The notes under the pieces were generated by a model. That model made no database searches, was not told where the DNA came from, and worked only from the letters and a program-made list of their open reading frames with translations. A DNA stretch of 64,000 bases from Hysterangium stoloniferum (taxonomy: Eukaryota; Basidiomycota; Agaricomycetes; Hysterangiales; Hysterangiaceae). Both the position numbers and the translations under genes were made by a program. The DNA is taken from NCBI GenBank assembly GCA_015178975.1, contig WHVD01000052.1, positions 1-64,000 of the forward strand. The letters run 5' to 3'. Within the stretch, counting starts at the first letter, position 1. Each line of letters opens with the position of its first letter. This document shows, one piece after another, positions 24,061 through 60,590 of the stretch.

Positions 24061-24064
24061 CATG

Positions 24065-36846: not shown

Positions 36847-36851
36847 AATCC

Positions 36852-37820
36852 TTCTAGGCATACTCTCTATCAAATTCTGACAAATAGAAGCAGGAATCCT
36901 GTCCCATTCTGTCTGGACCCTTTCCCATAACTCCTGAATACTCCTAGGCTCCACTTCATACTCTAGTAGCCTCTTCTTGAGGTAATGCCAAAGGTGTTCA
37001 ATTGGATTAAGATCAGCAGATTGAGGGGGCCATATCATGACATCAAAATCACTGCCATTAAGCACATTGGTGGCCTTCTTGCTCTTGTGTTTGGGTTCAT
37101 TGTCTTGCTGAAAGACAATATCCCCAGTCTTCTTCTTGTAATGCTTGAGAGATTCTTGAAGTTCATCCTCCAAAATGCTAATGTAAAGTTCATCATCCAT
37201 CCTCCCATCAATCTTGGTGGCATATCCTGGTTATTCCCAGAACATACAACCTCACAACATCAGATTCCCCCCTCCAAACTTGACTGTGCCCTCAACCAGC
37301 CTATCACTGAGCCCCTCTCCTGCTTTTTTCCACACCCACTTCCTCCCATCTGACCCCAAATTATTGATTTTAGTCTCATCTGACCACTCAACCCTCTTCC
37401 AGTCCTCCAGAGACCAGTTCTTGGATGCCAATGCAAAGTCCAGCCTCCCTTCTATACCTTTTTGTGAGTTTAGGCCTTTTCCTCTTCACCACAGCCTTCA
37501 TTCCAGCTTTCTTGAGTTCCCTAAAAATTGTTCTTGCAGAGATAGACTCCCCATTCATATCTTGTAGGACTTTAGAGGCCTGAGTGGCATGGTCAATCTT
37601 CTGGGAAGTGATTTGTTGGATGATGTAATGGGTATCAGAGGGGGAAATGTTTGTGTGGACGACCTCCAGCTGCTTTGGAGAGGGAGGAAGAATGTTTAGA
37701 GTGAATTCTGGATATAGTAGAGACAGAATGACCAGTGGTAGCAGCTACTTCATGTGAAGACTTGCCCTTGTCAAGTAGAGTAAGAACACGATCAAGTTGA
37801 GCAGGAGTGAGAGCTCTCAT
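36852..37820 (-). pseudogene. Tc1-like transposase of element A
   Basis: A DDE transposase that cuts and pastes its element at TA sites. The start ATG is at 37820. The N-terminal helix-turn-helix reads LTLLDKGKSSHEVAATTGHS and TISRIHSKH, then GGRPHK. The first catalytic Asp falls in a SDET block near 37380 in a shifted frame. Then come DELYISILEDELQESLKHY, FQQDNEPKHKSKKA (second Asp) and PPQSADLNPIEHLWHYLKKR (Glu), with 34 residues between the last two. Several frame breaks lie between 37630 and 37210, and the C terminus is separated by the inserted block (final codons at 35486-35526). Not functional, but the domain order is complete. Confidence 0.8.
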
Positions 37821-38894: not shown

Positions 38895-39420
38895 TAGCAA
38901 TATCCCAATTCTGAAAATGTGCACTTTGTCTCTTGCCAGAATCATATCCTCTCACTGCTTAACACTGGCCATACAGCTAGCCACATTGCAGCTTCTACTG
39001 GCCATGGCATTGGCACAGTCTCTAGACTTCACTCCAAGTATCATTGTCATCTCTCTAAGTCCATTGGTGGTCATCCCTCCAAGCTTTCCCCTACTAATAT
39101 TCACTGTGCACAGCATCTTATTGGCTCTGGGAAAGGTGACACTGCTGTTGATTTGGCCAAACCTCTTATGAATGTCACCAACCAGTCCATTTGTACCCAA
39201 ACTGTATGCAATAGTCTCAATATGGTTCTGATGAAGGCTGTGGTAAAGAAGAAAAAGCCCCTTCTCAGCAAGAAGCATAGAAAGGTAAGGATGGACTTTT
39301 CTGTGGCACATCAACATTGGACTGTGGAAGACTGGAAGAAGGTGGTGTGGAGGAAGTGGGTCTGGAAAAAGGTTGGGAAGGGCTTGAGTAATAGGCTGGT
39401 TCAGGGACTCAGAAGCAGAG
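38895..39420 (+). pseudogene. Tc1-like transposase N-terminal half (copy E)
   Basis: The plus strand from 38919 reads NHILSLLNTGHTASHIAAST, GTVSRLHSKYHCHLSKSIGG, HPSKLSPTN and later HWTVEDWKKVVW. Directly after, it reads RKWVWKKVGKGLSNRLVQGL. The SDET-containing segment with the first catalytic Asp is cleanly deleted in frame between VVW and RKW. It lies back to back with element C's C-terminal half, in the opposite orientation, and ends at the next inverted-repeat element. Confidence 0.75.
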
Positions 39421-39426
39421 TTGTCA

Positions 39427-40312
39427 GCCAAAAAAACCCTTCCAATGGTTCTCCTGTATATACATATATATTTGTAGTATTTCCATAGGAGGATATCTGA
39501 AAACTATTAAGTATACCAAATTCTAATATACTCTAAAGGTCATTTAAACATCTGAGATGTGATTCAAATATAATTTGGTTTTTAAAACTTTCAAAAAGTT
39601 TTAAACTCTCTCATACATTACAAACTAAAGAATCTTTGGACACAAGTAGACAATAAAAAAAATTAGTAGTTTGAAACACTAATACTTTTAAAAAATAGAT
39701 ACCTTTAGATAGTCCATTTCATGCATATGTATATTATTGGCACCTCTAAATACATATGTATTACTTCGGAATGGATCTGTCAATCTGAACAGATTTCTAC
39801 TTGATTCAACATACCCAGAATATATAGGGGGTTTTACTTAATAAAGACAGCTGTGGTATGAAAAATTTCCAATAATATTTTACATATTTTTCATGGAAAT
39901 AACTACATTACAACTTTTAAAAAACAAAGTACTAATAAAAGTATTAGTAGACATCTGTAAAAAGAAGGAAATTATATACAATGGAATTTGTTAAATAACT
40001 ATGGGTTGTATAAGATGTAATATGGAGAACTATTTCTGATGGTTGTTTTTTGATGATATAATTGTTTCAGAATAGATATCACTATTTAAAGATGGAGTTT
40101 TGTAAAAATAAGACTTTTATTAGTAAATATTTGAGATTATAGTAATTATAAACACCCTCCATACTTAGAGCTCATATAGTGGCATTGTATTTTAACAATC
40201 TAGATATGATAGAGTATATTCACAAATACTTTTGATATTTTTGCAATTTTATCCTCTGAGTTATCAACGATATACATCTGAAGTACTAAACATTGGAAGG
40301 GTTTTTGAGTCA
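39427..40312. mobile_element. Inverted-repeat-bounded non-coding element
   Basis: AAAAACCCTTCCAATG at about 39428-39444 is matched by CATTGGAAGGGTTTTT at about 40289-40304. The interior is AT-rich and non-coding. The ends resemble those of the Tc1 elements nearby, so this may be a MITE or a terminal-repeat pair left by deletion. Confidence 0.45.
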
Positions 40313-43325: not shown

Positions 43326-43522
43326 GTACTATTATATCTGTTGTCTCAGTTTTTGCCCTTGCCATGATTTAGTTCTTCATAACTCTTAGTGTCCCAAGCT
43401 TCTGGTAATTACACTGGGTACTGTACATTTAAAAGCATTTCAAAATATCAATGAGGATACAATAACAGTCCACAAAGGATGTAACAGAATGGTCAGGAAT
43501 AGAACAGTTTAACAATGTTTAA

Positions 43523-44096
43523 GGAGAATGGTCACACTTTATTGAATATACAAAATTTACTGAATAATCCTCATATTTTTTAAGTGAGACTATTCCTTCT
43601 GATCATGACAACTTATTCTAGGAGTTTATATTTAATTACCTGAAATTTCATCTTTAAAATATGCATGCTCTTTTGAAATACACACAAATGACATAGTTAC
43701 ATGAAATTATTTGGATTAACATAGATTATTTGGGTTATGACTTAATCTTTGGGTTAAACAAGATTATCTGGGTTGTCACCTAATCTTTGGGTTATGACAT
43801 ATTCTCTTGCATACAAGCAAACTTTCAAATATATTTCATATAATTTGAATTTAGTTGGTTTAGAGTTAACCAGAACTATCTGGGATACTAATCCCCATTG
43901 TGCAATTTATTCCAAAAGAATAATCTACAGATGATTGTTTGACTAAATTTTGTCAGATACAAGATAAATATTGATCTTTCCTTATTCTCCAGAGTATCAC
44001 CTGATGGACTGAATTTGATTAAATATTAATTTTACAACAAACAATATAAATATATATTCTTTAGTGGATAAATAACTTTTAAAGGGGTTATCCTCC
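43523..44096. mobile_element. hAT-like MITE, diverged second copy
   Basis: Starts GGAGAATGGTCAC and ends TTATCCTCC, with the same interior blocks as 3272-3988, for example ATCACCTGATGGACTGAA. It is about 140 bp shorter. No clear target duplication remains. Confidence 0.55.
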
Positions 44097-44099
44097 TAA

Positions 44100-44215
44100 C
44101 TGAATTTACTGGAATTTACTTGAGCTTAATTGGAATTTATTGAAATTTACAGGAATTCAGTGGAATGTAATTGGAGTTTACTGGAATTTGATTGGATTTA
44201 CAGATTTACTGATAT
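44100..44215. repeat. Degenerate GAATTTACTG-type short repeat
   Basis: Eight or so imperfect units of TGGAATTTACT and relatives. Confidence 0.6.
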
Positions 44216-44590
44216 TGCATTTAATTGACTTCCATTCCCATAATTTTAGTATATTTTCTGGTATTTATTTTAATTCTTTTGAAATTGTTTGTAATTTTTT
44301 TAACACCTAACACAGACCAGCAGACACAATGGATCCCTCACACATAACATGCCAGGTGGGCATTTGGCAACACCCCCACACCCCCACACATGCATGAATA
44401 GCATGTACATGTGACAGCAATGCATGTGATAATAGTATAACTTGGTGTGCCATTGTGGATGTGGGAAAACTAAGGCTTGCTTCACTTGCAAATACACTGT
44501 GGGAAACAGCCTGCTTGCTTCACTCACAGATGCTGACCAATTAGTGACTAAGCAGCACCCATGGACCCACCAATGCGAATTAACTTATAT

Positions 44591-44737
44591 GACAAGCTTA
44601 GGAACCCTTGCTACGCTGCGGGGCGGTCGCTTCGCGACCGGCCCCACAACTTCACTGCGGGCTCCAGCTTGTTGGGGGGCAAAGCCCCCCAAACCCCCCC
44701 GCGTCGACAACTTTTAAGTATTTCTGAGACTCATTGT
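44591..44737. repeat. Double-hairpin module 1
   Basis: Hairpin 1 (44620-44645): GGTCGC, loop TTC, GCGACC, with outer G/C pairs. Hairpin 2 (44672-44692): GGGGGGC, loop AAA, GCCCCCC. Followed by a C7 run and TTTTAAGTATTTCTGAGACT. Confidence 0.9.
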
Positions 44738-44740
44738 TTG

Positions 44741-45000
44741 AACGGAAAGTGTTCAGAGAACGGAAAGTGTTCAGAGAACGGAAAGTGTTCAGAGAACGGA
44801 AAGTGTTCAGAGGACAGAAAATGTGGAAACCATGTAAAGAATGGAAAGTGTTTAGAGAACAAAAAATGTGGAAACTGTAAAGAAAGGAAACTGTGTAGAG
44901 AACGGAAACTGTGTAAAGAATGGAAACTGTGTAAAGAATGGAAACTGTGTAAAGAACGGAAACTGTGTAAAGAATGGAAACTGTGTAAAGAACGGAAATA
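44741..45000. repeat. 18-bp minisatellite (GGAAAGTGTTCAGAGAAC type)
   Basis: Four perfect units, then degenerate ones, then about seven of the GGAAACTGTGTAAAGAAC form. Confidence 0.85.
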
Positions 45001-45392
45001 ACAGTTACAAATGGATCAATGGTTACAAAGGAAACAATGGTTACAAAGTAAACAACACTTATAAAAGAACAAACAGTTACAACCGGAACAATGTATAAAA
45101 GGATGAATCATTACAAAAGGAAAAATGGTTACCAAAGGAAAAATGGTCACAAATGGAACAATGGTTACCAAAGGAAGAATGGTTCCAATGGTTGAATTGA
45201 CAGTCAACTAATTAATGTGGGTAGCTGATTTATTTATTTTGATGTAGTTATTTCATCATGATTCATGTATTTTATTTTGATTTATTGTATTTTATTCTAA
45301 TTTATTGAATTTCACTTTAATTTACTGCATTTTATTTTAATTTATTCCATTGTATTTTTATTTAATGTATATTATTTTTATTTTAGGATTGC

Positions 45393-46385
45393 TGTGATCA
45401 GAGGACAAAAAGAGAAGGAAAGGGGACACGCACCTCCGGGAGGACAGACAGGAGGCCAATCAGATGGGGAGGAAGAGAGAAGGAAACAGTACACACACTC
45501 ATTGGAGGAAAGAGAGAGGAGGTCAATCAGAGGACAAAGAGAGAAGGAAACAGCACAGGCACCCTGGAAGAAAGAGAGATGGGGCTGATCAGAGCAGGAT
45601 GGAGGAAGAAGGAAATGGTACATGCACCACCTGGAGGCAAGAGAGGCCAATCAGAGCAGGATGGAGAGAGAAAGAAATGGTACACACACCATCTGGAGGA
45701 AAGAGAGAGGGGCCCATTCAGAGCAGGACGGAGAGTGAAGGAAATGGTACACACACTGGCTGGAGGAAAGAGAGGAGGACAATCAGAGGAGGATGAAGAG
45801 AGAAGGAAACTGTACACCCACCGCCTGGAGGAAAGAGAGGAGGACAAAGGGAGAAAGACAGGCTACATGCAACTCCTGGAGGAAAGAGAGAGGAGGACGA
45901 TTAGAAGAAGACAAAGAGAGAAAGACAGGGTACACGCACCTCCTGGAGAAAAAAGGGAGAGGGGAAGGGTACACACTCACTGGAGGAAAGGGAGAGGAGG
46001 ACAATCAGAGGAGGGCAAAGAGAGAAGGAAAGGGTACACGCACTCGCTGGAGGAAAGGGAGAGGAGGACGATCAGAGGAGAACAAAGAGAGGAGGAAAGG
46101 GGACACGCACTTCCTGGAGGAAAGAGAGGAGGCCCATGAGTGGAGGACGAAGAGAGAAAGAAAGGGTACACACACATCCTGGAGGAAAGAGAGAGGAGGC
46201 AATCAGAGGAGGACGAAGAGAGAAGAAAAGGGGACACGCACCAACTGGAGGAAAGACAGACAGACAAAGAGAGAAGGAAAGGGGACACACATCCTGGAGG
46301 AAAGAGGTGAGGACGATCAGAGGAGGATGAAGAGAGAAGGAAAGGGGACACGCACCAACTGGAGGGGCCAATCAGAGCAGGGTGC
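45393..46385. repeat. Purine-rich ~65-bp minisatellite
   Basis: About 15 units containing GGAGGAAAGAGAGAGGAGG, AATCAGAG, GAAGAGAGAAGGAAA and ACACGCAC. The strand is strongly purine-biased. Long frames on both strands are by-products. Confidence 0.85.
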
Positions 46386-46499
46386 ACGCCCAATTGGGCA
46401 CAAATGGGCACAGCGCGTTGCGAACAGGCGTGGCGCGTGCGCGCGTTGGCAAACGGAACGCGCTTTGCCGGTTTGTGCCCGAGTGGGCGGGCAGGCATG

Positions 46500-46990
46500 T
46501 GCCCATGGATGGGAGTGTGTGCGCCGTGGATGGGAGTGGGTGCGTGATGGATGGGTACGCGGTGGATGGGTGCGCGGCGGATGGGTGCGCGGTGAATGGG
46601 TGCGCGGCGGATGGGAGCGGGTGGATGGGTGCGCCGTGGGTGGGTGCGCGGTGGATGGGTACGGGTGGATGGGTACGGGTGGATGGGTGCGGCTGGATGG
46701 GTGCGGGTGGTTGGGTTCGCGGTGGATGGGTGCGGCTGGATGGGTGCGGGTGGTTGGGTGCGCGGTGGATGGGTGCGCGGTGGATGGGTGCGCGGTGGAT
46801 GGGTGCGCGGTGGATGGGTGCGCGGCGGATGGGTGCGGGTGGATGGGTGCGGGTGGATGGGTGCGCGGTGGATGGGTGCGCGGCGGATGGGTGCGGGTGG
46901 ATGGGTGCGGGTGGATGGGTGCGCGGTGGATGGGTGCGCGGTGGATGGGTGCGGGTCAGCCGTGGATGGGAGTGGTGCGCGGTGGATGGC
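46500..46990. repeat. G-rich 14-15-bp minisatellite
   Basis: Over 30 units of GGATGGGTGCGCGGT or GGATGGGTGCGGGT. Runs of three Gs at short spacing (GGGTGCGGGTGGATGGGTGC) fit the G-quadruplex pattern on the plus strand. Confidence 0.9.
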
Positions 46991-47190
46991 CCGGTATTCA
47001 AAACGGGCGTCCCCGGCGGGGACTGAGTGCGCGCGTTGGTAAACGACGATGGCCATCCGTGACAGGAACGCGGGTGACGGGACATGTGTGACAGGAATCC
47101 AAAAGCCTGGGTGATGACATAATCTGGGCGCCTTAATTACTAAAAAAGGCAAGGTGGACCCACAACCCACCAAGCAAAATTCATTATATG

Positions 47191-47337
47191 GACAAGCCTG
47201 GGAACCCTTCCTACGCTGCGGGGCGGTCACTTCGTGACCTGCCCCACAACTTCACTGCGGGCTCCGGCTTGTTGGGGGGCGAAGCCCCCCAAACCCCCCC
47301 GGGTCAACAACTCTTAAGTATTTCAGAGACTCATTGT
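47191..47337. repeat. Double-hairpin module 2
   Basis: Hairpin 1 at 47220-47245 (GGTCAC-TTC-GTGACC), hairpin 2 at 47272-47292 (GGGGGGC-GAA-GCCCCCC), same layout as module 1. Confidence 0.9.
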
Positions 47338-47364
47338 CAGAGACCAAGGAAATTGCTTTCAACT

Positions 47365-47741
47365 GGAAAGTCTCGTAGAACGTAAAGTCTCGTAGAACGT
47401 AAAGTCTCGTAGAACGTAAAGTCTCGTAGAACGTAAAGTCTCGTAGAACGTAAAGTCTCGTAGAACGTAAAGTCTCGTAGAACGTAAAGTCTCGTAGAAC
47501 GTAAAGTCTCGTAGAACGTAAAGTCTCGTAGAACGTAAAGTCTCGTAGAACGTAAAGTCTCGTAGAACGTAAAGTCTCGTAGAACGTAAAGTCTCGTAGA
47601 ACGTAAAGTCTCGTAGAACGTAAAGTCTCGTAGAACGTAAAGTCTCGTAGAACGTAAAGTCTCGTAGAACGTAAAGTCTCGTAGAACGTAAAGTCTCGTA
47701 GAACGTAAAGTCTCGTAGAACGTAAAGTCTCGTAGAACGTA
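47365..47741. repeat. 17-bp minisatellite (GTAAAGTCTCGTAGAAC), ~22 copies
   Basis: Essentially perfect head-to-tail array. The 17-bp period sets it apart from the 18-bp arrays around it, by one missing base in the same template. Confidence 0.95.
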
Positions 47742-47744
47742 AGA

Positions 47745-48112
47745 ATGGAAAGTGTTCAGAAAGTCTTTAAAGGATGGGAAGTCACTTTAGAATGGAAAGT
47801 CACTTTAGAATGGAAAGTCACTTTAGAATGGAAAGTCACTTTAGAATGGAAAGTCACATTAAAATGGAAAGTCACCTTAGAAAGGAAAGTTAGCTTAGAA
47901 TGGCACCCATTATTACAACAGAAACACCTGTTATTACAATGCAAACACCCGTTACAATGCAAACACCCGTTACAATGCAAACACCCGTTACAATGCAAAC
48001 ACCTGTTACAATGGAAACACCCGTTACAATGGAAACACCCGTTATTACAACGGAACACCCGTTATTACAACGGAACACCCATTATTACAACGTAAAGTCT
48101 CATAGAATGTAA
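47745..48112. repeat. 18-bp minisatellites (two forms)
   Basis: About eight units of GGAAAGTCACTTTAGAAT, then about eight of the ACCCGTTACAATGCAAAC form, with some longer variants (GTTATTACAAC). Confidence 0.85.
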
Positions 48113-48115
48113 AGT

Positions 48116-48618
48116 CTAACGGAAACATCTGTTACAATGGAAACACCCGTTACAACGGAAACACCCGTTACAACGGAAACACCCGTTACAACGGAAACAC
48201 CCGTTACAACGGAAACACCCGTTACAACGGAAACACCCGTTACAACGGAAACACCCGTTACAACGGAAACACCCGTTACAACGGAAACACCCGTTACAAC
48301 GGAAACACCCGTTACAACGGAAACACCCGTTACAACGGAAACACCCGTTACAACGGAAACACCCGTTACAACGGAAACACCCGTTACAACGGAAACACCC
48401 GTTACAACGGAAACACCCGTTACAACGGAAACACCCGTTACAACGGAAACACCCGTTACAACGGAAACACCCGTTACAACGGAAACACCCGTTACAACGG
48501 AAACACCCGTTACAACGGAAACACCCGTTACAACGGAAACACCCGTTACAACGGAAACACCCGTTACAACGGAAACACCCGTTACAACGGAAACACCCGT
48601 TACAATGGAAACAGTCAC
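48116..48618. repeat. 18-bp minisatellite (GGAAACACCCGTTACAAC), ~28 copies
   Basis: Nearly perfect array. Both strands are open in several frames only because 18 is a multiple of 3 and no unit contains a stop. Confidence 0.95.
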
Positions 48619-48894
48619 AAAAGTGTAAGAATGGAAACTGTTTAAAGAACAGAAACCATTACAAAAGGTATTACAAAATACAGAAGAAATATCACAAATG
48701 GAACAATGGTTTCAAAAGGAACAATGGGTACAAAAGGAGCAACAGTTTTGAACTGGAATTGATGTGCAATTGACACAGCATTGATATGATATATATAGCA
48801 TTGATTGAGAAGAGGAGAACACTCATTAAGCATTCATGGAGCATTGATACTTTACTTTCTTTGATTGAGCATTGATATATTGTATTGTATTTTG

Positions 48895-49105
48895 ACATAT
48901 TTTCTTGTATTTTAATTTATTGCATTTTATTTTATTTTATTTTATTCTATTTTTAAACATTTTATTTTGATTTATTGTATTTTATTTTGATTTTTCCGAT
49001 TTTATTTAATCTTGAAGCATTTTATTTTCATTTACTGTATTTTATTTCGATTTATTCTATTTTATTTTATTTTTCAACATTTTATTTTCATTTATTGTAT
49101 TTTAT
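48895..49105. repeat. AT-rich TATTTTATTTTGATTTAT block
   Basis: Degenerate ~20-bp units; counterpart in unit 3 at about 51575-51830 and a shorter one at 45225-45385. Confidence 0.75.
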
Positions 49106-49114
49106 CGAATGCTT

Positions 49115-49650
49115 CCGTGAGGGCGCGGGAAATACTCCCAAAAGGGGGCGGGCAATTCTCCCGGAAAGGTCGTGGGAAATGTGTTCTTGAGGGGCGCGGG
49201 AAATGGTCCGGTGAAGGGCGTGGGAAATGCTGACATGAAGGGCGCGGGAAATTCTACTGGAGGTGCGTGGGAAATGTTTCCATTGGTCGTATGAAATGGT
49301 TCCGCGCATGTGACAAATACTCCCACGCGTTTCAAAAATGCTCCCGCGGCATTAAAAAATACCTCCGCGCACGTGATAAAATGCTCCCGCACGTCACAAA
49401 ATACCTCCGCGCGTTAGAAAATACTTCCGTTCCCGTCACAAAATACTCTCGCGGCGCCATAAATGCTCCCGCGCTGTGAGAAAAGCTCCCGCGGCGCCAT
49501 TAAATACTCCCGCGAGTGCAAAAATGCACCCGCGCTGACTAATTGAAAAATTCGGGCGCTAACGCGCCCTCACCGGGACAGCTCACCCTCATCGGGATTT
49601 CAGGGCCGGATCGGGAAAAACTCGGGCGCTCCGCGCCCTCGGCCTGTGGC
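49115..49650. repeat. CpG-rich repeat block, copy 1
   Basis: Short units such as GGGCGCGGGAAATG and, further on, AATGCTCCCGCGGC and AATACCTCCGCGCG. CpG is very dense in contrast to the flanks. It ends with two small inverted repeats, GGGCGCTAACGCGCCC and GGGCGCTCCGCGCCC. A counterpart lies at 51830-52405. Confidence 0.85.
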
Positions 49651-49699
49651 GCCTAAAAACGCCCACCACCCACCGTACAACTTTACTTTATATGATATG

Positions 49700-49846
49700 G
49701 ACAAGCCTGGGAACCCTTGCTACACTGCGGGGCGGTCACTTCGTGACCTGCCCCACAACTTCGCTGCGGGCTCCGGCTTGTTGGGGGGCTTCACCCCCCA
49801 AACCCCCCCGCATCGACAACTTTTAAGTATTTCTGAGGCCCATTGT
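49700..49846. repeat. Double-hairpin module 3
   Basis: Hairpin 1 at 49729-49754 (GGTCAC-TTC-GTGACC), hairpin 2 at 49781-49801 (GGGGGG, loop CTTCA, CCCCCC). Confidence 0.9.
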
Positions 49847-49868
49847 TCTAAAAGGGAAGCTGTTTGAA

Positions 49869-50153
49869 TGGAAGTCACATTAGAAAGGAAAGTCACGTTA
49901 GAACGGAAAGTCACGTTAGAACGGAAAGTCACGTTAGAACGGAAAGTCACGTTAGAACGGAAAGTCACGTTAGAACGGAAAGTCACGTTAGAACGGAAAG
50001 TCACGTTAGAACGGAAAGTCACGTTAGAACGGAAAGTCACGTTAGAACGGAAAGTCACGTTAGAACGGAAAGTCACGTTAGAACGGAAAGTCACGTTAGA
50101 ACGGAAAGTCACGTTAGAACGGAAAGTCACGTTAGAACGGAAAGTCACGTTAG
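49869..50153. repeat. 18-bp minisatellite (GGAAAGTCACGTTAGAAC), ~16 copies
   Basis: Nearly perfect array directly after module 3. Confidence 0.95.
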
Positions 50154-50179
50154 ATGGAAAGTGTTCAGGGAATGGAAAG

Positions 50180-51260
50180 TGTTATAAAGGAAACACCCAT
50201 TACAAAGGAAGGAAACAACAAAGGAAGGAAACAATGGTTACAAAGAAAACACCGGTTACAAAGGAATCAACGGTTACAAAGGAATCAAAGGTTACAAAGG
50301 AATCAACGGTTACAAAGGAACTCAATGGTTACAAAGGAACTCAATGGTTACAAAGGAACTCAATGGTTACAAAGGAGTCAATGTTTGCAAAGGAGTCAAT
50401 GGTTACAAAGGAATGAAAAGTGTTCTCAGAACGGAAAGTGTTCAGAAAGTCTTTAAAGGATGGAAAGTCTTTAAAGGATGGAAAGTCTTTAAAGGACGGA
50501 AAGTCTTTAAAGGACGGAAAGTCTTTAAAGGATGGAAAGTCTTTAAAGGACGGAAAGTCTTTAAAGGACGGAAAGTCTTTAAAGGACGGAAAGTCTTTAA
50601 AGGACAGAAAGTCTTTAAAGGACAGAATGTCACTTTAGAACGGAATGTCACTTTAGAATGGAAAGTCACCTTAGAATGGAAAGTCACCTTAGAATGGAAA
50701 GTTACCTTAGAACGGAATGTCACCTTAGAACAGAAAGTCACCTTAAAACAGAAAGTCACCTCAGAGCAGAAAGTGTTCATGGGATGGAAAGTGTTACAAA
50801 GGAAACAATGGTTACAACACGAAATGAAAGGAAACAATTGTGAGAAAGAGAAACAAAAGGAAACAAACATTACAAAGGAAACACCCTTTACAATGGTCAC
50901 AAAAGAAAAGAATGGTCACAAAAGAAAACAACAGTGACAAAAGAAAACAACAGTTACAAAAGAAAACAAACGTCACAAAAGAAAATAATAGTCACAAAAG
51001 AAAACAATGGTAAAGAGAACAATGGTTACAAAAGAAAACAACAGTCACAAAAGAAAAGAATGGTCACAAAAGAAAAGAATGGTCACAAAAGAAAAGAATG
51101 GTCACAAAAGAAAATGACAGTGGAAAACAACAGTTACAAAAGAAAACAACAGTTACAAAAGAAAACAACAGTGACAAAAGAAAACAACAGTGACAAAAGA
51201 AAACAACAGTGACAAAAGAAAACAACAGTGACAAAAGAAAACAACAGTGACAAAAGTGTA
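50180..51260. repeat. Mixed 18-19-bp minisatellites
   Basis: In order: GGTTACAAAGGAATCAAC (18) and GGTTACAAAGGAACTCAAT (19); about ten units of GGAAAGTCTTTAAAGGAC (50440-50630); GGAAAGTCACCTTAGAAT (50630-50790); then AACAACAGTGACAAAAGAA (19) to 51258. Confidence 0.9.
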
Positions 51261-51829
51261 AGAATGGAAACTGTTTAAAGAACAGAAACCATTACAAAAG
51301 GTATTACAAAAGACAGAAAGAAATATTACAAATGGAACAATGGTTTCAAAAGGAACGATGGGTACAAAAGGAGCAACAGTTTCAAAAGGAGCAATGGTTG
51401 CAAAAGGAGTAATGGTTTCAAAAAAGCAATGGTTTCAGATGGAGTAACTGAATAGAGATTGAGTTGATTCAACTGGAATTGATGTACAATTGAGACAGCA
51501 TTGATATGATATAGCATTGATTGAGAATTGATAAGCATTGAAGAAACATTAATAGAGCATGGATAGAGCATTGATATATTGTATTGTATTTTGATATATT
51601 TTATTGTATTTCAATAAAATGGAAAAATGATATATTGTATTGTATTTTGATATATTTTATTGTATTTCAATTTATTCCATTTTATTTTGATTTATTGTAT
51701 TTTATTCTGATTTTTCCGATTTTATGTAATTTTGAAGCATTTTATTTTCATTTACTGTATTTTATTTCGATTTATTCTATTTTACTTTATTTCTAAACAT
51801 TTTATTTTCATTTATTGTATTTTATCGAA

Positions 51830-52405
51830 TGCTTCCGTGAGGGCGCGGGAAAGACTCCCAAAAGGGGGCGGGCAATTCTCCCGGAAAGGTCGTGGGAATG
51901 TGTTCTTGAGGGGCGCGGGAAATGGTCCGGTGAAGGGCGTGGGAAAAACTGCGCGGGAAATGCTTACGTGAACGGCACCGGACATGCTGACATGAAGGGC
52001 GCGGGAAATTCTACTGGAGGTTCGTGGGAAATGTGTCCGGTGTATGAAATGGTTCCGCGCATGACAAATACTCCCGCGCGTTCCAAAAATGCTCCCGCGG
52101 CATCTGAAAATACCTCCGTGCAAATACTCCCGCACGTCACAAAATACCTCCGCGCGTTAGGAAATACTTCCGCGCCCGTCATAGAATACTCCCGCGGCGC
52201 CACAAATGCTCCCGCGCCGTGAGAAAAGCTCCCGCGGCGTCATTAAATACTCCCGCGTGTGCAAAAATGCCCCCGCGCTGACTAATGAGAGACTTCGGGT
52301 GCTAACGCGCCCTCAGCTTAGTCACACGGTGAGGTTCGGGCGCTGCGCGCCCTCACAAATTGGGGAAAAAGCTCGGGCGCTCCGCGCCCTCACAAATAGG
52401 GCCTG
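51830..52405. repeat. CpG-rich repeat block, copy 2
   Basis: Close counterpart of 49115-49650, with small insertions and deletions, including the GGGCGCTCCGCGCCC inverted repeat near 52375. Confidence 0.85.
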
Positions 52406-52453
52406 CGGCGCCTAAAAACGCCCACCACCCACCAAGCAACTTTACTATATATT

Positions 52454-52600
52454 GACAAGCCTGGGAACCCTTGCTACGCTGCGGGGCGGTCACTTCGTGA
52501 CCTGCCCCACAACTTCGCTGCGGGCTCCGACTTGTTGGGGGGCTTCGCCCCCCAAACCCCCCCGCATCCATCACTTTTAAGTATTTCTCAGCACTTCTAA
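52454..52600. repeat. Double-hairpin module 4 (Helitron 3' region)
   Basis: Hairpin 1 at 52483-52507 (GGTCAC-TTC-GTGACC), hairpin 2 at 52535-52555 (GGGGGGC-TTC-GCCCCCC). Then three repeats of CTAAGTATTTCTGAG-like sequence before the helicase stop codon at 52692. Confidence 0.9.
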
Positions 52601-52691
52601 GTATTTCTGAGCATTTCTAAGTATTTACATATCACAATCACCATTAGAAGTTAGAAAAGTTAGAAACAATCAATCAAAATACATTAAAACT

Positions 52692-55600
52692 TCAATCTAA
52701 TAATACATCTTTGTACACTATATTTGTTGTTCTCTTTGTCTCCTTTAATAATATTTTTATCCTATTCCAACTTCTTCCCCTTGAAAGTCCCACATACAAT
52801 TGCCCATGTCCAAACACTGCCATTCTCAAATCTATTCCTACCACTTTCAAAGATTGTCCCTGTGACTTGTTAATCGTCATTGCAAATGCCAACCGCACTG
52901 GAAACTGAATACGATGCAGTTTAAATGGCAGTTGATCATCATTTGTAATTATTTTGATCCGTGAAAGAAATGCCATTTTTCCAGTACATGGTCCAGTTAG
53001 GATCCGCACTTGAAGCAAATGATTTTCCATTTTCACCAATCGCAATCGTGTCCCATTGAAAAGCCCCCTCTGTGGATCTATATTCCGTAATAGCATCAAT
53101 GGCACTCCTGGCTTCACCTCAAGTCGACTTGGTGAGATTCCACCAAAATTCAGGCTGTTCAAATACTCTACAGGATACATCTCTGTCTCACTGTCTCCCT
53201 CTGCAGTATCAGCACTGTGGTATACACGACTCTCCCCTGGAAATTTATTCAGAAGTTCTGAATTAATCTCATCAACCTCTGAATTCCTTGGACACAGAAT
53301 TGCCCGGTCTAAGAAGTCTTCATCTTGCCAATCTCTTTGGTCTCTATCCACATGGATGTCTGGATATATCTCAGCAATTAGATCTGACATTCCTGGACCA
53401 CAGATCATATGAGGAGGGACATCCATTGTATGATCCAAAGGCAAATCCTTTCCATGGCCTATATCCAATAGCCACTGAGCAAACTGTTGACTGTCTGGAT
53501 CATCCTGGTCCACCCGCATATTCTTTTTCAAGAAGAGTACCTTGATATGCTTCCACAGTTCTGATTTCTGGATACATTGTCCAATGATCTGTTCTTTTGA
53601 ACCCTTTGGTACAACAGGCAAAGTCTGCTGAAAGTCACCTCCCCAGGCCACAGGAATCCCTCCAAAGGGAAGATCCTCCTTGTCTAATAAATCCCTCAGG
53701 GTTCTGTCAACTGCCTCACATGTGAAACGTGACTGCATTGGAACTTCATCCCAGATAATCAGTCGGACATTCTTCATGAGCTCTGCTTTTTCTGAACCCT
53801 TTTTGATATGACATAGAGCATCCTTCTCACAGGGAACAGGGATTGAAAATGTACTGTGAGAAGTGCGACCACCCTTGAGAATCATTGATGCAATTCCAGA
53901 AGATGCCACACAAAGCACAATGTAGCCCTTGGCCCTACATGCATGTGCCACAGTATTCCATACAAAGGACTTGCCAGTGCCTCCTGGACCATTGACAAAG
54001 AACAATTTGCCTTCTTGTTGCTCATCCACTGCCTTCATGATAGTCTCAAAGGCAGCATGTTGTTCAGGATTGCACTTTTCAAGATTAGCTTGGGCACTGG
54101 CAAGCTCATGTTGAATATTATAACTCTTTTGCTCCTTAATGAGACGGTTGCCAACAATGGCATCCCAATTATCAGTGCAGTTTGGCATGGTTGGATAGTG
54201 TGAGAGGGACTTTCCAGAATAGCGTAGGATCTTATCAATTTCATAGAGACCAAAGTCATAAACTTGGATTGGTGATGGATCATCAATGCCATGTGTTTGC
54301 CGAAGTATGAACTCCAAATCATCACAAAGAAATACTTTAAAGTCATTCCAGAGTTCATGGGGTTGTGCAGGGGAGGACATGGTCAAAATGATGGCAAACA
54401 ACCTGCGAAGTTGAAACCCAGACTCTATCCGACTGGCTTCTGTGAGGCACATGTGCCACTGACGGTCATCTTCAAGCAAACCACGTGCTACACAGGCTTG
54501 TTGAAATGTAGGATAGGTCTCACCCTGAAAGGTCCTGAGCTGTTCAAATGAGGTGGCTCCTTTGACAACAGTGAGCAATGTACGGAGGTGGAATCTTTCC
54601 CCACTGGCAATGTTAACAAAATGAATACGCCCTATGGAAAACCCACTTTGACGTGGCTTCCATGATTTCTTCTTGGGTACATATGTGAAATACTCAGGAA
54701 AGTCCATATAAAATGTGTCCTGGGCACGCTGTCCATTATAACCAATGAGACCCTTGGCATTAGCTTCAAAATAAGCCATGAGAGTTGTCCCTGAACGCTC
54801 TGCCCTTTGTAAAGCCTCAGCAGGACCTTGATCACCATCAAAAAGTACAGTGTTTTCTCCAGGAAGATGGACCCCAAGTGCCATTACTGCAGGAACCTGG
54901 GTATGGAGTTCATTACGCATTAATCGCCAGACAGACTCATGTGCACTGACATAACGTGCATCAAGGTACTGTTGAATCTCATCTGGTGTTGTTCCAAATT
55001 CCATAGTTGTACGATCATGGCCCTTGTAACAGTATTTATGCATGTACTTCATTGACCTATTGGTAAAGGTCAACTCTACATTGATGTGGCATTCAAAGGT
55101 GAGAATCAAAATAGGGGAGTAAGGGATGACATGTCTGTTGTCATATGTAAACTTGGGAGTTTCATAAACCCTTCCATTGTTGGGGCGAGCATATGTTGGA
55201 TAGCCTTCCTCATTGACAATGGTGGCTTCACACCAATCCTTTGGATAGTATTTACTGCACTTCTTATCAACCATACAGGCAGCATTTGGATGTTCAGCTC
55301 CACAGGGGCCATGGGTCATGAGTTGTCCTACTAAATTAAATAGTCTGGGATGTATTTCAGGATCTGGAAAACAGGCAGAAACAAATGAGTCAACATCTTC
55401 TGATGTCCTTGGCTTATTCTGGTCATCAAACCATATGAGGCAGTGCATGTGTGGAAGACCCCGCTTTTGGAATTCAATGACATGGATATGGGCTACAGTT
55501 CTACCAAAGATCTGGTCCTCTGTGATCATCTTGAGCAGCTTAGCCTTCTTGGCAGCAAAGACACGGGAGACCAAATCAGGACGATCAGCAGCAGTCTGTC

Positions 55601-58403
55601 CAGGAAGCAATTCATCAGTAACCTCCTTCCACTTGGGATTAGCAGTCATGGTGATGAAGCAGCTGGCATTGCCATACTTGCGTGCAATTGCAAATGAATT
55701 TTGTAGACTTTGTCTCATATCCCTTGAACTGCCAGTAAATGTAGAAGGCAGTATGACCCTCTGACCAATACTATTGGCATCTGTGCTGACATCCTGATTT
55801 GTAAATGCATCAACCACTTGGTTGTAGAGTTCTGCACGTAACCTTGGTTGATTATCCCTGAGAAATCTCAATCTGCGTTGCTCTGTTACTGCCCAGGCAT
55901 TGACAATATACTGTTGGAATAGCTTTTGTGCATAAAAAAGGGTCATGGCTTCATATGCTCTGGGAAATAGGCGATAGGCATAATATTCACATTGGGTCAC
56001 TTTCCGACTTTTTTCTTCATCTTCACCTTCATCCTGCTGTCCAGGTTGGGGCTGCCAATTTTGATTTGCATAGGGAATATCCCATGACCAACCACGCTCA
56101 CCCCTGGGAAAGAGCATGACATAATGAAGGGGTGTATAAATGGCTTGTGCATCATGGACATGATGGAACTGGCCCCCTCTCCTCTGAACAATAATATCCC
56201 TTGGGTCACCACGACCTGTATCACCATCTCCAGGGAGAATGACTGCAAGTTCATCACCGGTTGGAAGATTGTACCGTCTGGGATCATTAAAAGCTTTGTA
56301 GCTCAGCCTGACATGTAACCTTGGAGTCTCTGCCTGTGTTCTTAATCGCTCATGTGCCTGGCGATATAGGTGTATAAAGGGATTATATTGCTCCATCATA
56401 TCCTGGAGGTCAGAAAAGGTTTGGTTGTTTAGGCTTCTATTTGCCCTGTGATTCTGCCTCTGCTGCAATGCCTGCCTCAGTCCCTCCTCCTCTGCCAAAG
56501 CAGGATCATGGATGTAAAGCTGAGCATAACTACGTGATACACCTTCTGTGTAAGGAATCAAAGCACCATGCTGGTGATACAATTCACCATGAATTTTGAA
56601 GACATATGGGCCACCACCACCCTGTAAGACAGACTCATCCAAATTGACACCTAGAGATGTAAATGCAAAAGCATTATTATAGGCACGAATATTCTTGAGA
56701 AATTCCCTGCTGTCTGTATTACCCTCCAGGAGAGATCTTAAAGTGTGAGGGACTGGCTCAAGTATTGGAAGGGCCACCTTTCCTCGCTTGCAACATTTGC
56801 CAAATTTTGGATTTGTCTTAGAGCTATTTGAGATACGCTCATCCATCCAGTGTAAAGCTCCACAGTCTGAACACTGTATATCCATACGTCCCAAGTTATA
56901 TCTTTGGAATCTGTCCTCCACAACTGGTTGCCGTCCAATGGGTAATTGTGGAATGATGGGAGGTGGAGGTGGAGGTGGAGGCATAGCTGCAGGCTGTAAA
57001 ATAGCTGGGGGTAGGGGAATAGCTGGAGGTAGGGCTAACTGTAGCTGTTGTTGTTGTTGTGGAACTGGATTTCCAGGTGGATAGTGAATCTGTGGTGGTG
57101 CCCACTGCACAATAGGTGGTTGTTGTTGTTGTGGAACTGGATTTCCAGGTGGATGGTGGGGCTGTGGTGGGGCTAACTGCAAAATGGGTACCTGTGCCTG
57201 AAGTTGTGGGACTGGATTTCCAGGTGGATGGTGAGGCTGTGGTGGAGCTAACTGCAAAATGGGTACCTGTGCCTGATGTTGTGGAACTGGATTTCCAGGT
57301 GGATGGTGAAGCTGTGGTGGTGCCCACTGCAAAATGGGTACCTGTGCCTGAAGTTGTGGGACTGGATTTCCAGGTGGATGGTGAAGCTGTGGTGGTGCCC
57401 ACTGCAAAATAGGTGGTGGTGGTGGTGGTGGTTGTGCAGCTGGATTTCCAGGTGGATGGTGATGCAGTGGTGGTGCCCACTGTAAAATAGGTAGTTGTGG
57501 CTGTTGTGCAGCTTGATTTCCAGGTAGATGGTGATGCTGTAGTGGTGCTAACTGCAAAATGGGTAGCTGTGCCTGGACTTGTGGATGACTTTGCTGTACT
57601 GTTGCAGGTACATTTCCTGGTTGATGACCATGCTGTGCATGTGGTGCTGACTGTAAAACTGGTGGCTGTAGTTGAGCAGGTTGATGTAATTGTGGTAAAG
57701 AATTATGCTGAGCATATAGAGCAGCTACTGCAGCAGAGCCAACTACAGGCTGGACAGCTTGAGGTGCTAATGGCAAAATTGGTTGCTGCAGCTGAGCAGC
57801 TACAGCTACATTGCCTTGTATACGACCTGGTGCCTGTGGCTGAATAAGTGCATTTGCTGGTTGATGACCCTGCTGTATATGTGGTGCTACCTGCAAAATT
57901 GGTTGCTGTATTTGAGTAGCTGCATTTCCCTGTCCACGCCTCTGCCTCTGTCTCTGCCGAACAGGTATTAATGGTGGCAAATCTCTATACTGATTAAGCA
58001 AGTCAGTCATTGCATCAGAGCCAACTGGAGCAGAGTGATTTGTAGCAGAGCCACTTGCAGCAGAGCCACTTGCAGCAGAGCCACCTGCAGCAGAACCACC
58101 TGCAGTAGAGCCACCTGGCTGAGCAACCAAAAATGGATTATCAGGTTGACCTCTACCAACAGGGAGATCTCCAAATGGTCGAGGAGGGAGTGGTATATTA
58201 GAATTCACAGCTAAACGTCGATGACGATCAGATGGAGATGTCATTTGCAATTGTGCCCTACGCTGCCTTCGCTCCTCCTCCCGATCACGCTCAGGTGTTC
58301 GATCCATAATAATACAGCAATGACAACAGTAGCAGCAGAGACAGAAAGCGTGCAAAAGAGGGGGGAAGAGAGCAGGGGGAGTGAGCTGGAGTGGATTAGG
58401 CAA
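52692..58403 (-). CDS. Helitron Rep/PIF1-like helicase (RepHel), intact frame
   Basis: Single open frame of up to 1903 codons. The second Met (58307, MDRTPERDREEERR) is the more likely start because it begins the basic RRAQLQ segment common at Helitron N termini. From the first Met: a Pro/Gln-rich region at about 150-470 with 25-residue repeats (QVPILQWAPPQLHHPPGNP); a Cys motif CSDCGALHW near 510; and the HUH nuclease motif LPHMHCLIWF near 980. KYMHKYCYKGHD near 1118 carries the paired tyrosines that nick and join DNA. The PIF1 helicase has GPGGTGKS near 1470 (Walker A), IIWDEVPM near 1545, GGDFQQTLPVV near 1585, NKSQGQSL near 1842 and VGLSRGRS near the end. All key residues are present, so the protein may be active; it would nick, transfer and unwind one element strand. 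Confidence 0.93.
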   Translation of the reverse strand: MPNPLQLTPPALFPPLLHAFCLCCYCCHCCIIMDRTPERDREEERRQRRAQLQMTSPSDRHRRLAVNSNIPLPPRPFGDLPVGRGQPDNPFLVAQPGGSTAGGSAAGGSAASGSAASGSATNHSAPVGSDAMTDLLNQYRDLPPLIPVRQRQRQRRGQGNAATQIQQPILQVAPHIQQGHQPANALIQPQAPGRIQGNVAVAAQLQQPILPLAPQAVQPVVGSAAVAALYAQHNSLPQLHQPAQLQPPVLQSAPHAQHGHQPGNVPATVQQSHPQVQAQLPILQLAPLQHHHLPGNQAAQQPQLPILQWAPPLHHHPPGNPAAQPPPPPPPILQWAPPQLHHPPGNPVPQLQAQVPILQWAPPQLHHPPGNPVPQHQAQVPILQLAPPQPHHPPGNPVPQLQAQVPILQLAPPQPHHPPGNPVPQQQQPPIVQWAPPQIHYPPGNPVPQQQQQLQLALPPAIPLPPAILQPAAMPPPPPPPPIIPQLPIGRQPVVEDRFQRYNLGRMDIQCSDCGALHWMDERISNSSKTNPKFGKCCKRGKVALPILEPVPHTLRSLLEGNTDSREFLKNIRAYNNAFAFTSLGVNLDESVLQGGGGPYVFKIHGELYHQHGALIPYTEGVSRSYAQLYIHDPALAEEEGLRQALQQRQNHRANRSLNNQTFSDLQDMMEQYNPFIHLYRQAHERLRTQAETPRLHVRLSYKAFNDPRRYNLPTGDELAVILPGDGDTGRGDPRDIIVQRRGGQFHHVHDAQAIYTPLHYVMLFPRGERGWSWDIPYANQNWQPQPGQQDEGEDEEKSRKVTQCEYYAYRLFPRAYEAMTLFYAQKLFQQYIVNAWAVTEQRRLRFLRDNQPRLRAELYNQVVDAFTNQDVSTDANSIGQRVILPSTFTGSSRDMRQSLQNSFAIARKYGNASCFITMTANPKWKEVTDELLPGQTAADRPDLVSRVFAAKKAKLLKMITEDQIFGRTVAHIHVIEFQKRGLPHMHCLIWFDDQNKPRTSEDVDSFVSACFPDPEIHPRLFNLVGQLMTHGPCGAEHPNAACMVDKKCSKYYPKDWCEATIVNEEGYPTYARPNNGRVYETPKFTYDNRHVIPYSPILILTFECHINVELTFTNRSMKYMHKYCYKGHDRTTMEFGTTPDEIQQYLDARYVSAHESVWRLMRNELHTQVPAVMALGVHLPGENTVLFDGDQGPAEALQRAERSGTTLMAYFEANAKGLIGYNGQRAQDTFYMDFPEYFTYVPKKKSWKPRQSGFSIGRIHFVNIASGERFHLRTLLTVVKGATSFEQLRTFQGETYPTFQQACVARGLLEDDRQWHMCLTEASRIESGFQLRRLFAIILTMSSPAQPHELWNDFKVFLCDDLEFILRQTHGIDDPSPIQVYDFGLYEIDKILRYSGKSLSHYPTMPNCTDNWDAIVGNRLIKEQKSYNIQHELASAQANLEKCNPEQHAAFETIMKAVDEQQEGKLFFVNGPGGTGKSFVWNTVAHACRAKGYIVLCVASSGIASMILKGGRTSHSTFSIPVPCEKDALCHIKKGSEKAELMKNVRLIIWDEVPMQSRFTCEAVDRTLRDLLDKEDLPFGGIPVAWGGDFQQTLPVVPKGSKEQIIGQCIQKSELWKHIKVLFLKKNMRVDQDDPDSQQFAQWLLDIGHGKDLPLDHTMDVPPHMICGPGMSDLIAEIYPDIHVDRDQRDWQDEDFLDRAILCPRNSEVDEINSELLNKFPGESRVYHSADTAEGDSETEMYPVEYLNSLNFGGISPSRLEVKPGVPLMLLRNIDPQRGLFNGTRLRLVKMENHLLQVRILTGPCTGKMAFLSRIKIITNDDQLPFKLHRIQFPVRLAFAMTINKSQGQSLKVVGIDLRMAVFGHGQLYVGLSRGRSWNRIKILLKETKRTTNIVYKDVLLD
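57000..57560 (-). repeat. 75-bp coding tandem repeat in the Helitron gene
   Basis: About seven units of 75 bp (25 codons) encode QVPILQWAPPQLHHPPGNPV and variants. Unit numbers probably vary between copies. Confidence 0.85.
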
Positions 58404-59449
58404 AAGGAAATCATGAATAATCTTTTATAGTCTCAGAGAAGGTATTAATACTAACCTGGAGTTGTTTCAAAAGCCACAAAACGGAAGGTCAATTTTAACT
58501 GTATAAATTATATCTAAGTAGAAAATAGTGAAACCAATTACAGGGAAAGAACACACTTTCAATACTCCACCTATACTTATAGGGAGCAGTCACAAAAACA
58601 GTAGAGAGTGCCAGAGAAAGGGAGTTCAGACAAATAGGTCTAAAATAGCCCAAAAACACGAAAAATAATGCATAAATAATTTTTTTTAACAGCATGAGAG
58701 AAAGTACTAATACTAACCTGGAAGTATGTTATATCTTCCAGTAAGAATGGAAACACAAAAAGGCACAGAATAGAGGGTCAACTTCACTGTATGAATAATA
58801 ATCAAGTCAAAAAAAGACAAAATAAATTACAGGGACAGGACCCACCTTCAGTACTCCACCTATACTCACAGAGAGGACTCAAAGAAGTAATGGAAAGTCC
58901 CAGGGAACCAAAATTCAGAGAAATAAGTCTAAAATAGCCCAAAGGCGTGAAGAATAATGCATAAATAAATTAAAACAGCATGATAAAGCCCAAAACATAC
59001 CTGGGATTGTAGGGGAGCCTTCAGACTGTATATTCCAATGAAAATAATACCCAGGAAAGGGTAATTTGACTGCAAATAAATTATTTAATCATTAAAAAAA
59101 GCGAAAATTAATTAATAATAGATAGGAGCTCACCACAGCTTTTATATTGCCTGAGGAGTTGAGGAAGGCTTAAGAGATGATAAAGGCTCAATATGGAGGG
59201 TCCAGGGCCAGTGGATGGCCAGACTCTAACTGCAGAATAATATATTTAATTATTAAAAAAGCGAAGTTTAATACAATTAAATAGAGGCCTCAACACACCT
59301 TGGTATGAGCCCAAATCCCTTGAGAAATATTCCAAAAGGTAACCCCTCACAAATTAAGGAGCAAAAAGCTGGGGGAGGGAGAGGGGAAAGGAGAAGCTGT
59401 GGCAGCCTCAAGGCTTTGCAGCGGGCTTCCGGGCTTCCCGCGGCTTGAC
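58404..59449. other. Helitron 5' untranslated region
   Basis: AT-rich, no gene. Three diverged tandem segments of about 250 bp are visible (shared AATACTAACCTGGA and ACTCCACCTATACT near 58450-58570 and 58700-58860, weaker to 59000). A second pair near 59040-59090 and 59235-59285 shares TTATTTAAT.ATTAAAAAA. A GC-rich segment with inverted GCGGGCTTCC/GGGCTTCCCGC closes the element. Confidence 0.5.
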
Positions 59450-60590
59450 AAATTCATCCTCTTTCGAGAGTTGCCACTCTAACTTCTGATCGTGAATTTA
59501 CAGCAGGAAGAATATGATAGTAGCCAAATGAACGAGCTGTATTGACTTCGCCGTTGACAAGACCCTCCGTTGACACCTAGCCTTCTGCAGCTCGAATACA
59601 GGCCGTCTCGGAACGATCACAAGGATCATGGTCCATCGATAGACCATGCGCGGTTCCATGCCGTAACACGACGGCTAGAGCTTTCCCGAGATTGGCGACA
59701 TACATTGGCATATCCACCATATCCACCACAATTATTTCCACCCGGCGTCTAATATCAAAATTTGTATCTTCAGCAGCCACAGGGCCAGATAGCCGATATT
59801 CACCGGGAGCGAATCTAGCTCGTTGTCGGTGCAGGACAGCACTTGAAGGTCTGTTAACGAACATATGGCATCATGCAGACTTCGGAATGAATTGTAATTC
59901 ATCGGTAGTGTGATTAACAATATTAACGCCGCCAGCGCAAAATCGTTCAGGGAGGCCAGTTTGGCATGAGAGATATGTTGAGGGTCTTGAGTGAGAACGT
60001 GTGGATATGCGACTGTGGCTCTCTTGGGATCTCAGGCATAAATCGCTCATTGCGCCGAAGCTTTCCCAGCTACTCGCTCCGGTATATGAGCCTCAGCAAG
60101 AAAGAAAGTTCTCATATCCCGAGCTGCTCAAACCCATCCGAAGGGATATACATATCCAGCTTGTTCGAGCCGACGATGTACGATCGTCGCTGGTCGTTCG
60201 GTAGGTGCTAGTAAATGTTCTTCAAGGCCAGATTAAATCATCATCGTGCCTTGTGATGGAGTAAAATTACACACCTCGACCAGGTTCTCGTAGGTACAGT
60301 CTGTGGGGTTCCACGGTATTGTTCTTCATGATTCAATCCATCTCCTCTCGATCATTCTGCGATTGCGAGTCAAACTTGAAGATCTTCTTGCGTAGGACTT
60401 TCTGAAGGTCTTGCACGGTTATGTGGAGATAACACAATACCACATGATAGCTCACGTGATCGTCGGGGTCGACAGGGATCAAGTACTGTAAAAGCATCGT
60501 AGTGAGTAGAATGAGGGTATTAATTAAAGACGTAACAAACCTTAGCGGCAGCTGTGTGGCTTTGTGTCGTATGTAATCCATTCCCATGCT
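59450..60590 (-). pseudogene. Adenylate cyclase piece A: RA, LRR and start of PP2C
   Basis: Fungal adenylate cyclases make cAMP and carry Ras-association, leucine-rich-repeat, PP2C-like and cyclase domains. The minus strand from 60590 shows RA-domain sequence (YHVVLCYLHITVQDLQKVL; then TERPATIVHRRLEQAGY). LRR follows (LKTLNISHAKLASL; LTDLQVLSCTDNELDSLPVN), then PP2C-like blocks (MYVANLGKALAVVLRHGTAH; SETACIRAAEG). The reading needs several frame changes and many LRR units are missing, so it is dead. It ends abruptly at the Helitron boundary (59449). Base composition is CpG-rich, unlike the scrap at 43.1 kb. Confidence 0.75.
59452..59620. repeat. Direct repeat shared by the two cyclase pieces
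   Basis: Matches 61658-61828 in the same orientation (for example GACAAGACCCTCCGTTGACA in both). It is the PP2C-like coding segment present in both copies. Confidence 0.85.

Follow-up and report, generated by a model that had tools for sequence, protein, structure and literature searches.

How does a single Helitron, with one candidate 5' end, come to be accompanied by four 3' terminal modules? The question is raised by contig WHVD01000052.1 of the basidiomycete Hysterangium stoloniferum (GenBank assembly GCA_015178975.1), of which positions 1 to 64,000 of the forward strand were analysed (hereafter, the window). An intact Helitron transposase gene, RepHel, lies on the minus strand. Downstream of it are four copies, m1 to m4, of a palindromic 3' module, and the three units between the modules are filled with minisatellites. 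The answer that we prefer, tentatively, is stepwise tandem duplication of the 3' terminator together with the DNA downstream of it, with turnover of the minisatellites. The locus looks like an unusual tandem duplication of known kinds of parts, not a new kind of mobile element.

Four copies of a 3' terminal module

Four copies of a 173-bp ungapped repeat (repeat family D12 of the window), all in the same orientation, start at 44565, 47165, 49674 and 52428. The spacings are 2600, 2509 and 2754 bp and agree within 10%. These repeat coordinates bear out the first-pass annotation of this DNA, which had placed the same module at the head of units so spaced and in one orientation. Each of the following modules is defined by the repeat, alignment, fold and covariance model.

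44535-44720, minus strand: module m1, the outermost, with unrelated DNA after it on the minus strand
47134-47320, minus strand: module m2
49637-49829, minus strand: module m3, core 97.3% identical to that of m4 (3 of 111 sites differ)
52396-52583, minus strand: module m4, the 3' terminal region adjoining the RepHel gene

Two patterns derived from the module each have four matches in the window at up to 3 mismatches, against none in 100 shuffles. A covariance model built from the four modules gives its own copies 207-222.6 bits; the remaining five of the nine matches up to E 10 reach at most 17.6 bits. The copies had been described as identical, which they are not: identity over the 111-nt core ranges from 89.2 to 97.3% in the six pairwise comparisons.

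On the RepHel strand the module comprises a G/C hairpin followed by an imperfect palindrome of 81 alignment columns, in which a 14-pair outer stem encloses a 16-pair inner stem with the loop GAA. The double-hairpin module of ~147 bp proposed earlier is therefore real as a module, but the block shared by the copies is larger (~190 bp at m1, from ~44548 to 44737) and contains one two-part palindrome and a separate G/C hairpin. DNA folding gives -33.1 to -34.6 kcal/mol for the minus (RepHel) strand versus -28.2 to -31.3 for the plus strand. None of 200 shuffles folds as well as the minus strand of any of the four modules (z from -4.7 to -5.4). CTTG and then T stand at the base of the palindrome in all four; a Helitron is expected to end in 3'-CTRR or, in fungi, CTTG. 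By analogy with Helraiser, the palindrome would act as a termination signal.

Beyond the palindrome of m1, ~43 nt (44548-44590) still align with m2, m3 and m4 (3, 24 and 2 of 200 shuffles as good, respectively). Past these, in the minus-strand direction, m1 enters unrelated DNA. The shared ~43 nt suggest that the 3' terminus may lie further out than CTTG.

The module patterns had no match in viral contigs and a prokaryote genome collection, where copies are not expected. A 15-base stretch of the module core did occur in 38 viral stretches; searched with the covariance model, none of these reached E<=1, and they were treated as chance. Over the window, neither ARAGORN nor Rfam (gathering thresholds) gave a match.

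The RepHel gene and the ends of the Helitron

52692-58307, minus strand: RepHel transposase gene, intact, 1871 amino acids, without internal stop (Pfam Helitron_like_N 1.3e-57, PIF1 4.8e-72)
59392-59448, minus strand: candidate Helitron 5' terminus, 5'-TCAAGCCGCGGGAA... (TCAAGCC...), beginning at 59448 and forming an imperfect inverted repeat with the module edge

RepHel is a single protein with Rep (HUH) and Pif1-like helicase parts, the combination by which a Helitron is recognised. Its closest solved relative is the Helraiser transposase (PDB 7lcc; 917 bits over 1400 residues, E 1.9e-274). In the printed part of the alignment, GLPHMH and KYMHKY of RepHel align with Helraiser; we take these to be the HUH and tyrosine motifs. 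Recent activity of the Helitron may be inferred from the intact open frame. A 75-bp repeat (7.1 copies, 57056-57585) lies inside this frame, in the proline/glutamine-rich N-terminal part of the protein. A search of viral contigs with the RepHel protein returned no match.

Module m4 begins ~100 bp downstream of the RepHel stop codon, in agreement with the earlier view of the fourth module as the 3' region of a full Helitron. The element at ~52.4-59.4 kb has the 3' hairpin expected of an autonomous Helitron. Its other end is less clear. Four places outside the array, the candidate 5' end among them, reach its inverted-repeat score, which corresponds to 80 of 55766 windows and to 52 of the 11388 windows matched for GC. 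In this test the query was shortened, gaps were made cheaper and the window was set at the expected boundary, and it was chosen after the match had been seen. In a stricter and wider test, of the module edge against the 4 kb past the gene, 237 of 300 shuffles scored as high and the best place was 60581, not 59448. The 5' end therefore stays a candidate, since only the later, retuned test was suggestive. It opens with the TC expected of a Helitron. Helitrons insert between A and T and duplicate no target, but the base preceding the candidate end is G, not the canonical A, and its fold is no better than that of shuffles (105 of 200). In its favour, a host paralogue of ~170 bp begins at this candidate end (59446-59616 versus 61652-61825, 86.8% identity). 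As regards the asymmetric ends of Helitron2/Helentron-type elements, in which the 3' inverted repeat lies some 38-60 bp inside, the short inverted repeat is imperfect (negative in one test and suggestive in the other), and the ~43 shared nt beyond it fit.

Units filled with minisatellites

The space between modules consists of tandem arrays with repeats of 17-19 bp, AT-rich repeats of 20/60 bp, and GC- or GA-rich repeats of ~15 to 67 bp. Read in plus orientation, a unit has first a 17-19-bp minisatellite block; next comes an AT-rich array with 14-16% GC, and the GC- or GA-rich block is last.

44738-45190: 18-bp minisatellite block of unit 1 (tandem-repeat analysis)
45240-45390: AT-rich 20-bp array of unit 1, 15% GC, 75.6% identical to that of unit 2
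45397-46990: third block of unit 1, a 65-67-bp GA-rich array and then a 15-bp GC-rich array, without colinear match to units 2 and 3
47338-48745: 17-18-bp minisatellite block of unit 2; 22 of its 17-bp copies, at 47367-47742, are identical
48870-49104: AT-rich 20/60-bp array of unit 2, 14% GC (tandem-repeat analysis)
49104-49699: GC-rich block of unit 2, reaching the m3 palindrome (compared with unit 3)
49847-51440: 17-19-bp minisatellite block of unit 3 (tandem-repeat analysis)
51560-51824: AT-rich 20/60-bp array of unit 3, 16% GC, 90.2% identical to that of unit 2
51824-52453: GC-rich block of unit 3, with 20-24-bp repeats, reaching the m4 palindrome; 89.5% identical to unit 2 over 574 aligned bases

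Units 2 and 3 are colinear nearly throughout, with identities of 83.6% and 70.8% in two joined pieces when array changes are counted, and of 89.5, 90.2 and 92.6% in three segments chosen as non-array or slow. In unit 1 the module is kept, as are the 18-bp and AT blocks, and a different block stands where units 2 and 3 have the GC block. The designation of the array as a higher-order satellite accordingly holds for units 2 and 3, which form a real higher-order repeat, and only in part for unit 1. Because 22 perfect 17-bp copies adjoin flanks that have diverged by ~10%, turnover within the arrays is taken to be fast.

The short repeats are related in part. When 13 consensus units were compared with one chosen 18-mer, three shared 17 positions, four shared 12-13 and one shared 10; the other five shared only 4-9, and a single origin for all the short repeats, which had been considered, is not shown for all of them. 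A common origin is plausible for some of the units.

The units had been described as devoid of genes and filled with minisatellites, and this agrees with the protein searches. A tblastn search of the whole window with the RepHel protein (E<=1) found no RepHel remnant in the array, the gene itself being the sole match. Five long open reading frames in the array have no Pfam family above cut-off; one collagen match fell below it.

Origin of the array

In the scheme that we prefer, an intact Helitron would have ended in the long palindromic terminator m4. A segment of ~2.6 kb, made up of this 3' terminator and the minisatellite-rich DNA that follows it, would then have been duplicated in tandem, step by step. 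The duplications would have arisen by recombination or template switching between repeats, such as the 20-bp repeats at 52572-52626 that adjoin m4, rather than by rolling-circle synthesis. The outcome would be a single gene with a single candidate 5' end, accompanied by four 3' terminators. In each copy the short repeats would subsequently have been expanded or replaced by slippage, at a pace exceeding that of change in the modules.

The scheme is supported by the colinearity of units 2 and 3 and by the array's lack, in the searches made, of a RepHel remnant and of a second copy of the candidate 5' end. The relationships among the modules also bear on it. On the RepHel strand, the body after m4 is body 3, and that after m3 is body 2. 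If the copied segment was a module plus its downstream DNA, m3 and m4 should be the closest pair. If instead every unit was an element terminated by a module of its own, the closest pair should be m2 and m3, since bodies 2 and 3 are the closest bodies. Fourteen informative sites (3 upstream of the core, 3 within it and 8 downstream) group m1 with m2 against m3 with m4, and each alternative grouping has none, so that a module and the body following it share a history. The mechanism so derived rests on four module sequences at one locus. The cores of m3 and m4 differ at 3 of 111 sites, versus 94 of 954 in the unit segments (Fisher p 0.009); this lower divergence suggests constraint or conversion.

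A short motif, GGCGCC(N)CAG, occurs three times in the window when both strands are searched, in each case just past a module:

52403-52412, minus strand: junction motif past m4
49644-49653, minus strand: junction motif past m3
47124-47132, minus strand: junction motif past m2 (m2 versus m3 and m4, p 0.024 and 0.038)

The motif was defined after inspection of these copies. It is compatible with a duplicated junction as well as with the start of an element.

Several points weigh against stepwise duplication or soften its support. By our reading of the alignment, only about half of the 14 informative sites (1 upstream, 3 core, 3 downstream) are free of doubts about edges or gaps, and two of the three core sites are adjacent. 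Gene conversion between neighbouring modules could mimic the same grouping. The different GC/GA block of unit 1 calls for a replacement or a second source, and the AT segments used in comparing the units are arrays themselves. The junction motif, present at all three internal junctions and absent at the outer end, could mark the start of an independent element. The fold speaks for the scheme in that a 38-pair structure has standard pairs in all 152 cells across the four copies, but it was derived from m2, which is itself among the copies counted. Changes on both sides affect only two pairs, and both of these are in m1; 36 of 500 shuffles do as well. Three one-sided changes, all G.T on the RepHel strand, are too few to carry weight.

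The next reading, which we consider unlikely, takes each unit as a non-autonomous, minisatellite-filled Helitron with its own 3' module, three of which would have inserted in succession beside their autonomous partner. The junction motif is the best evidence for it, since GGCGCC(N)CAG opens all three bodies and occurs nowhere else in the window. The unit size of 2.5-2.75 kb, the distinct blocks (one of them very AT-rich) and the 3' hairpin also resemble Mothra of rice, and adjacent or tandem Helitron insertions are on record. However, independent insertion predicts that m2 and m3 are closest, for which there are 0 informative sites against 14, about half of them firm, for m3 with m4. The bodies also start unlike the candidate Helitron 5' end: the units share the 3' region and not the 70 bp at the candidate 5' end, a comparison that depends on that candidate. 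In Helraiser, the 5' end is essential (PMC4778049).

Somewhat less probable is rolling-circle read-through past the terminator, by which a template circle with little beyond the 3' end and its repeats would have yielded a head-to-tail array. The uniform orientation and the spacing within 10% would be accounted for. Helraiser forms circles, and in ~11.7% of events it captures flanking DNA beyond the 3' end (PMC4778049); tandem Helitrons of bat and silkworm are attributed to bypass (PMC4067079), but the silkworm paper examined has no word starting with "tandem", and published plant arrays often have the reverse make-up, with many 5' ends and one 3' end. At this locus, moreover, the searches show neither a remnant of RepHel nor a junction with the candidate 5' end of the Helitron. 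When the candidate 5' terminal 70 bp were compared with both strands of 44000-52440, the scores were 22 and 16, and 51 of 200 and 200 of 200 shuffles scored as high. The first-pass annotation had suggested a Helitron concatemer whose interior was replaced by satellites. Such a concatemer is unsupported, because read-through should place a 5' end after each 3' end and the candidate end, itself provisional, is not found above chance; the missing RepHel remnant and the grouping of m1 with m2 and m3 with m4 point the same way.

It is improbable that a single mobile composite Helitron, able to end at any of four terminators, spans the whole of ~44.5-59.4 kb. One candidate 5' end does face four possible 3' ends of the same orientation, each keeping a terminator-like palindrome, and the hairpin of a nearby Helitron has been proposed in the literature as a source of new ends. 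However, no second copy is known, and the host paralogue that flanks the 5' end is not continued in the DNA left of m1 (score 13 against a null mean of 11.9; 27 of 100 shuffles scored as high). Nor is it continued in any of the units (24, 23 and 81 of 100).

We would give very little credence to a bolder proposal, that the units are terminator-origin cassettes, each with a palindrome that stops rolling-circle transfer, 17-19-bp iteron-like repeats and an easily unwound AT-rich array. This order of palindrome, iteron-like repeats and AT-rich array is reminiscent of replicon origins. If the proposal were true, stopping at any of the four terminators would produce Helitron variants of ~7 to 15 kb and spread the minisatellites.

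That the order or number of the repeats is an assembly artefact is most improbable: perfect 17-mer arrays are hard to assemble and array lengths may still be wrong, but neighbouring units differ by ~10% in the compared segments, which makes a duplicated contig unlikely.

Relation to known Helitrons

No described element was thought to have this make-up. That was too strong, for repeat-filled Helitrons and tandem Helitron arrays have both been published (PMC4683698, PMC8268682, PMC4067079, PMC12628747). A close likeness to the units is Mothra (DHH_Mothra) of rice, a non-autonomous repeat-filled Helitron of 1252-2741 bp with two blocs of tandem repeats, one of 20% GC (PMC4683698). Like the units, it has no RepHel gene, is of similar length (1.25-2.74 kb), carries a 3' hairpin and has one very AT-rich block among its two; repeat number and order vary between its copies, as they do among the units. 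In contrast, Mothra forms a high-copy family whose ends are defined (TC/CTAG) and whose blocks each have six direct repeats, whereas the three units described here are contiguous, have no recognised 5' end and consist mostly of repeats of 15-67 bp.

The module has relatives of its own. Helraiser/Helibat1 has a related RepHel protein and a palindrome downstream of the gene, and its 3' hairpin acts as a termination signal (PMC4778049). However, the palindrome of Helraiser is single, 19 bp long and 11 nt away from CTAG, whereas here a much longer, two-part palindrome occurs four times and no CTAG end was identified. HELPO2 of Pleurotus ends in CTTG (HELPO1/2, PMC4289320), to be compared with the CTTG and T at the base of all four palindromes. 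In FoHeli1/2 of Fusarium the 3' inverted repeat is 38-51 bp short of the terminus, and GAA separates the arms of the hairpin (PMC5148889), which recalls the ~43 nt shared past the palindrome and the GAA loop. The 5' terminus is repeated in some FoHeli elements; no repetition of the 3' terminus was found in the parts of that paper examined.

Tandem Helitron arrays are known from plants, where in many of them several 5' ends accompany just one 3' end (Xiong 2016 as reported in PMC12628747; also PMC8268682). The present locus is likewise a Helitron-derived tandem array, but here it is the 3' end that is present four times, beside a single candidate 5' end. Satellite arrays are carried by oyster Helentrons (PMC8268682), and in Helentron/HINE elements (oyster, PMC8268682; Drosophila and mite, PMC4067079) repeat arrays lie between conserved end boxes. 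Those arrays are inside single elements, unlike the present one, and in oyster they also occur alone or with one box. A literature search over titles and the beginnings of abstracts, with most subscription papers outside its scope, found no repeated Helitron 3' end with minisatellite units, which does not prove that none has been published.

Other repeats in the window

The DNA immediately left of the array (43520-44098) is a dispersed repeat found also at 3270-3990 (85% identity over 355 bp in the main piece). The match stops at 44098 and 3990, perhaps at the end of another transposon. An empty site of the Helitron was sought at 3270-4600; one match stops at 3990/44098 and another covers only 65 bp (4156-4220 to 59727-59791), which is insufficient.

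An inverted repeat of 1669 bp (7223-8891 and 16042-17709, 99.6% identity) flanks two long open reading frames without Pfam match (9942-13570), and a nearby frame at 18169-18693 matches reverse transcriptase. A 70/210-bp tandem array occupies 26335-27077, with a related inverted copy ~2 kb away at 24035-24200. Short pieces of Tc1/mariner-like transposase are found at 36724-37230 (DDE_3), 38898-39488 (HTH_Tnp_Tc3_2) and 63616-63891, the third by DNA similarity to the first.

Implications

What differs here from the published cases is the combination of one candidate 5' end with four 3' ends in a higher-order repeat. Since the copied unit seems to consist of the terminator and its downstream DNA, the locus could be used to test how satellite DNA is seeded by the 3' ends of Helitrons, and also whether serial terminators yield transposons of several lengths. 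It further cautions that minisatellites found beside Helitrons need not be captured cargo.

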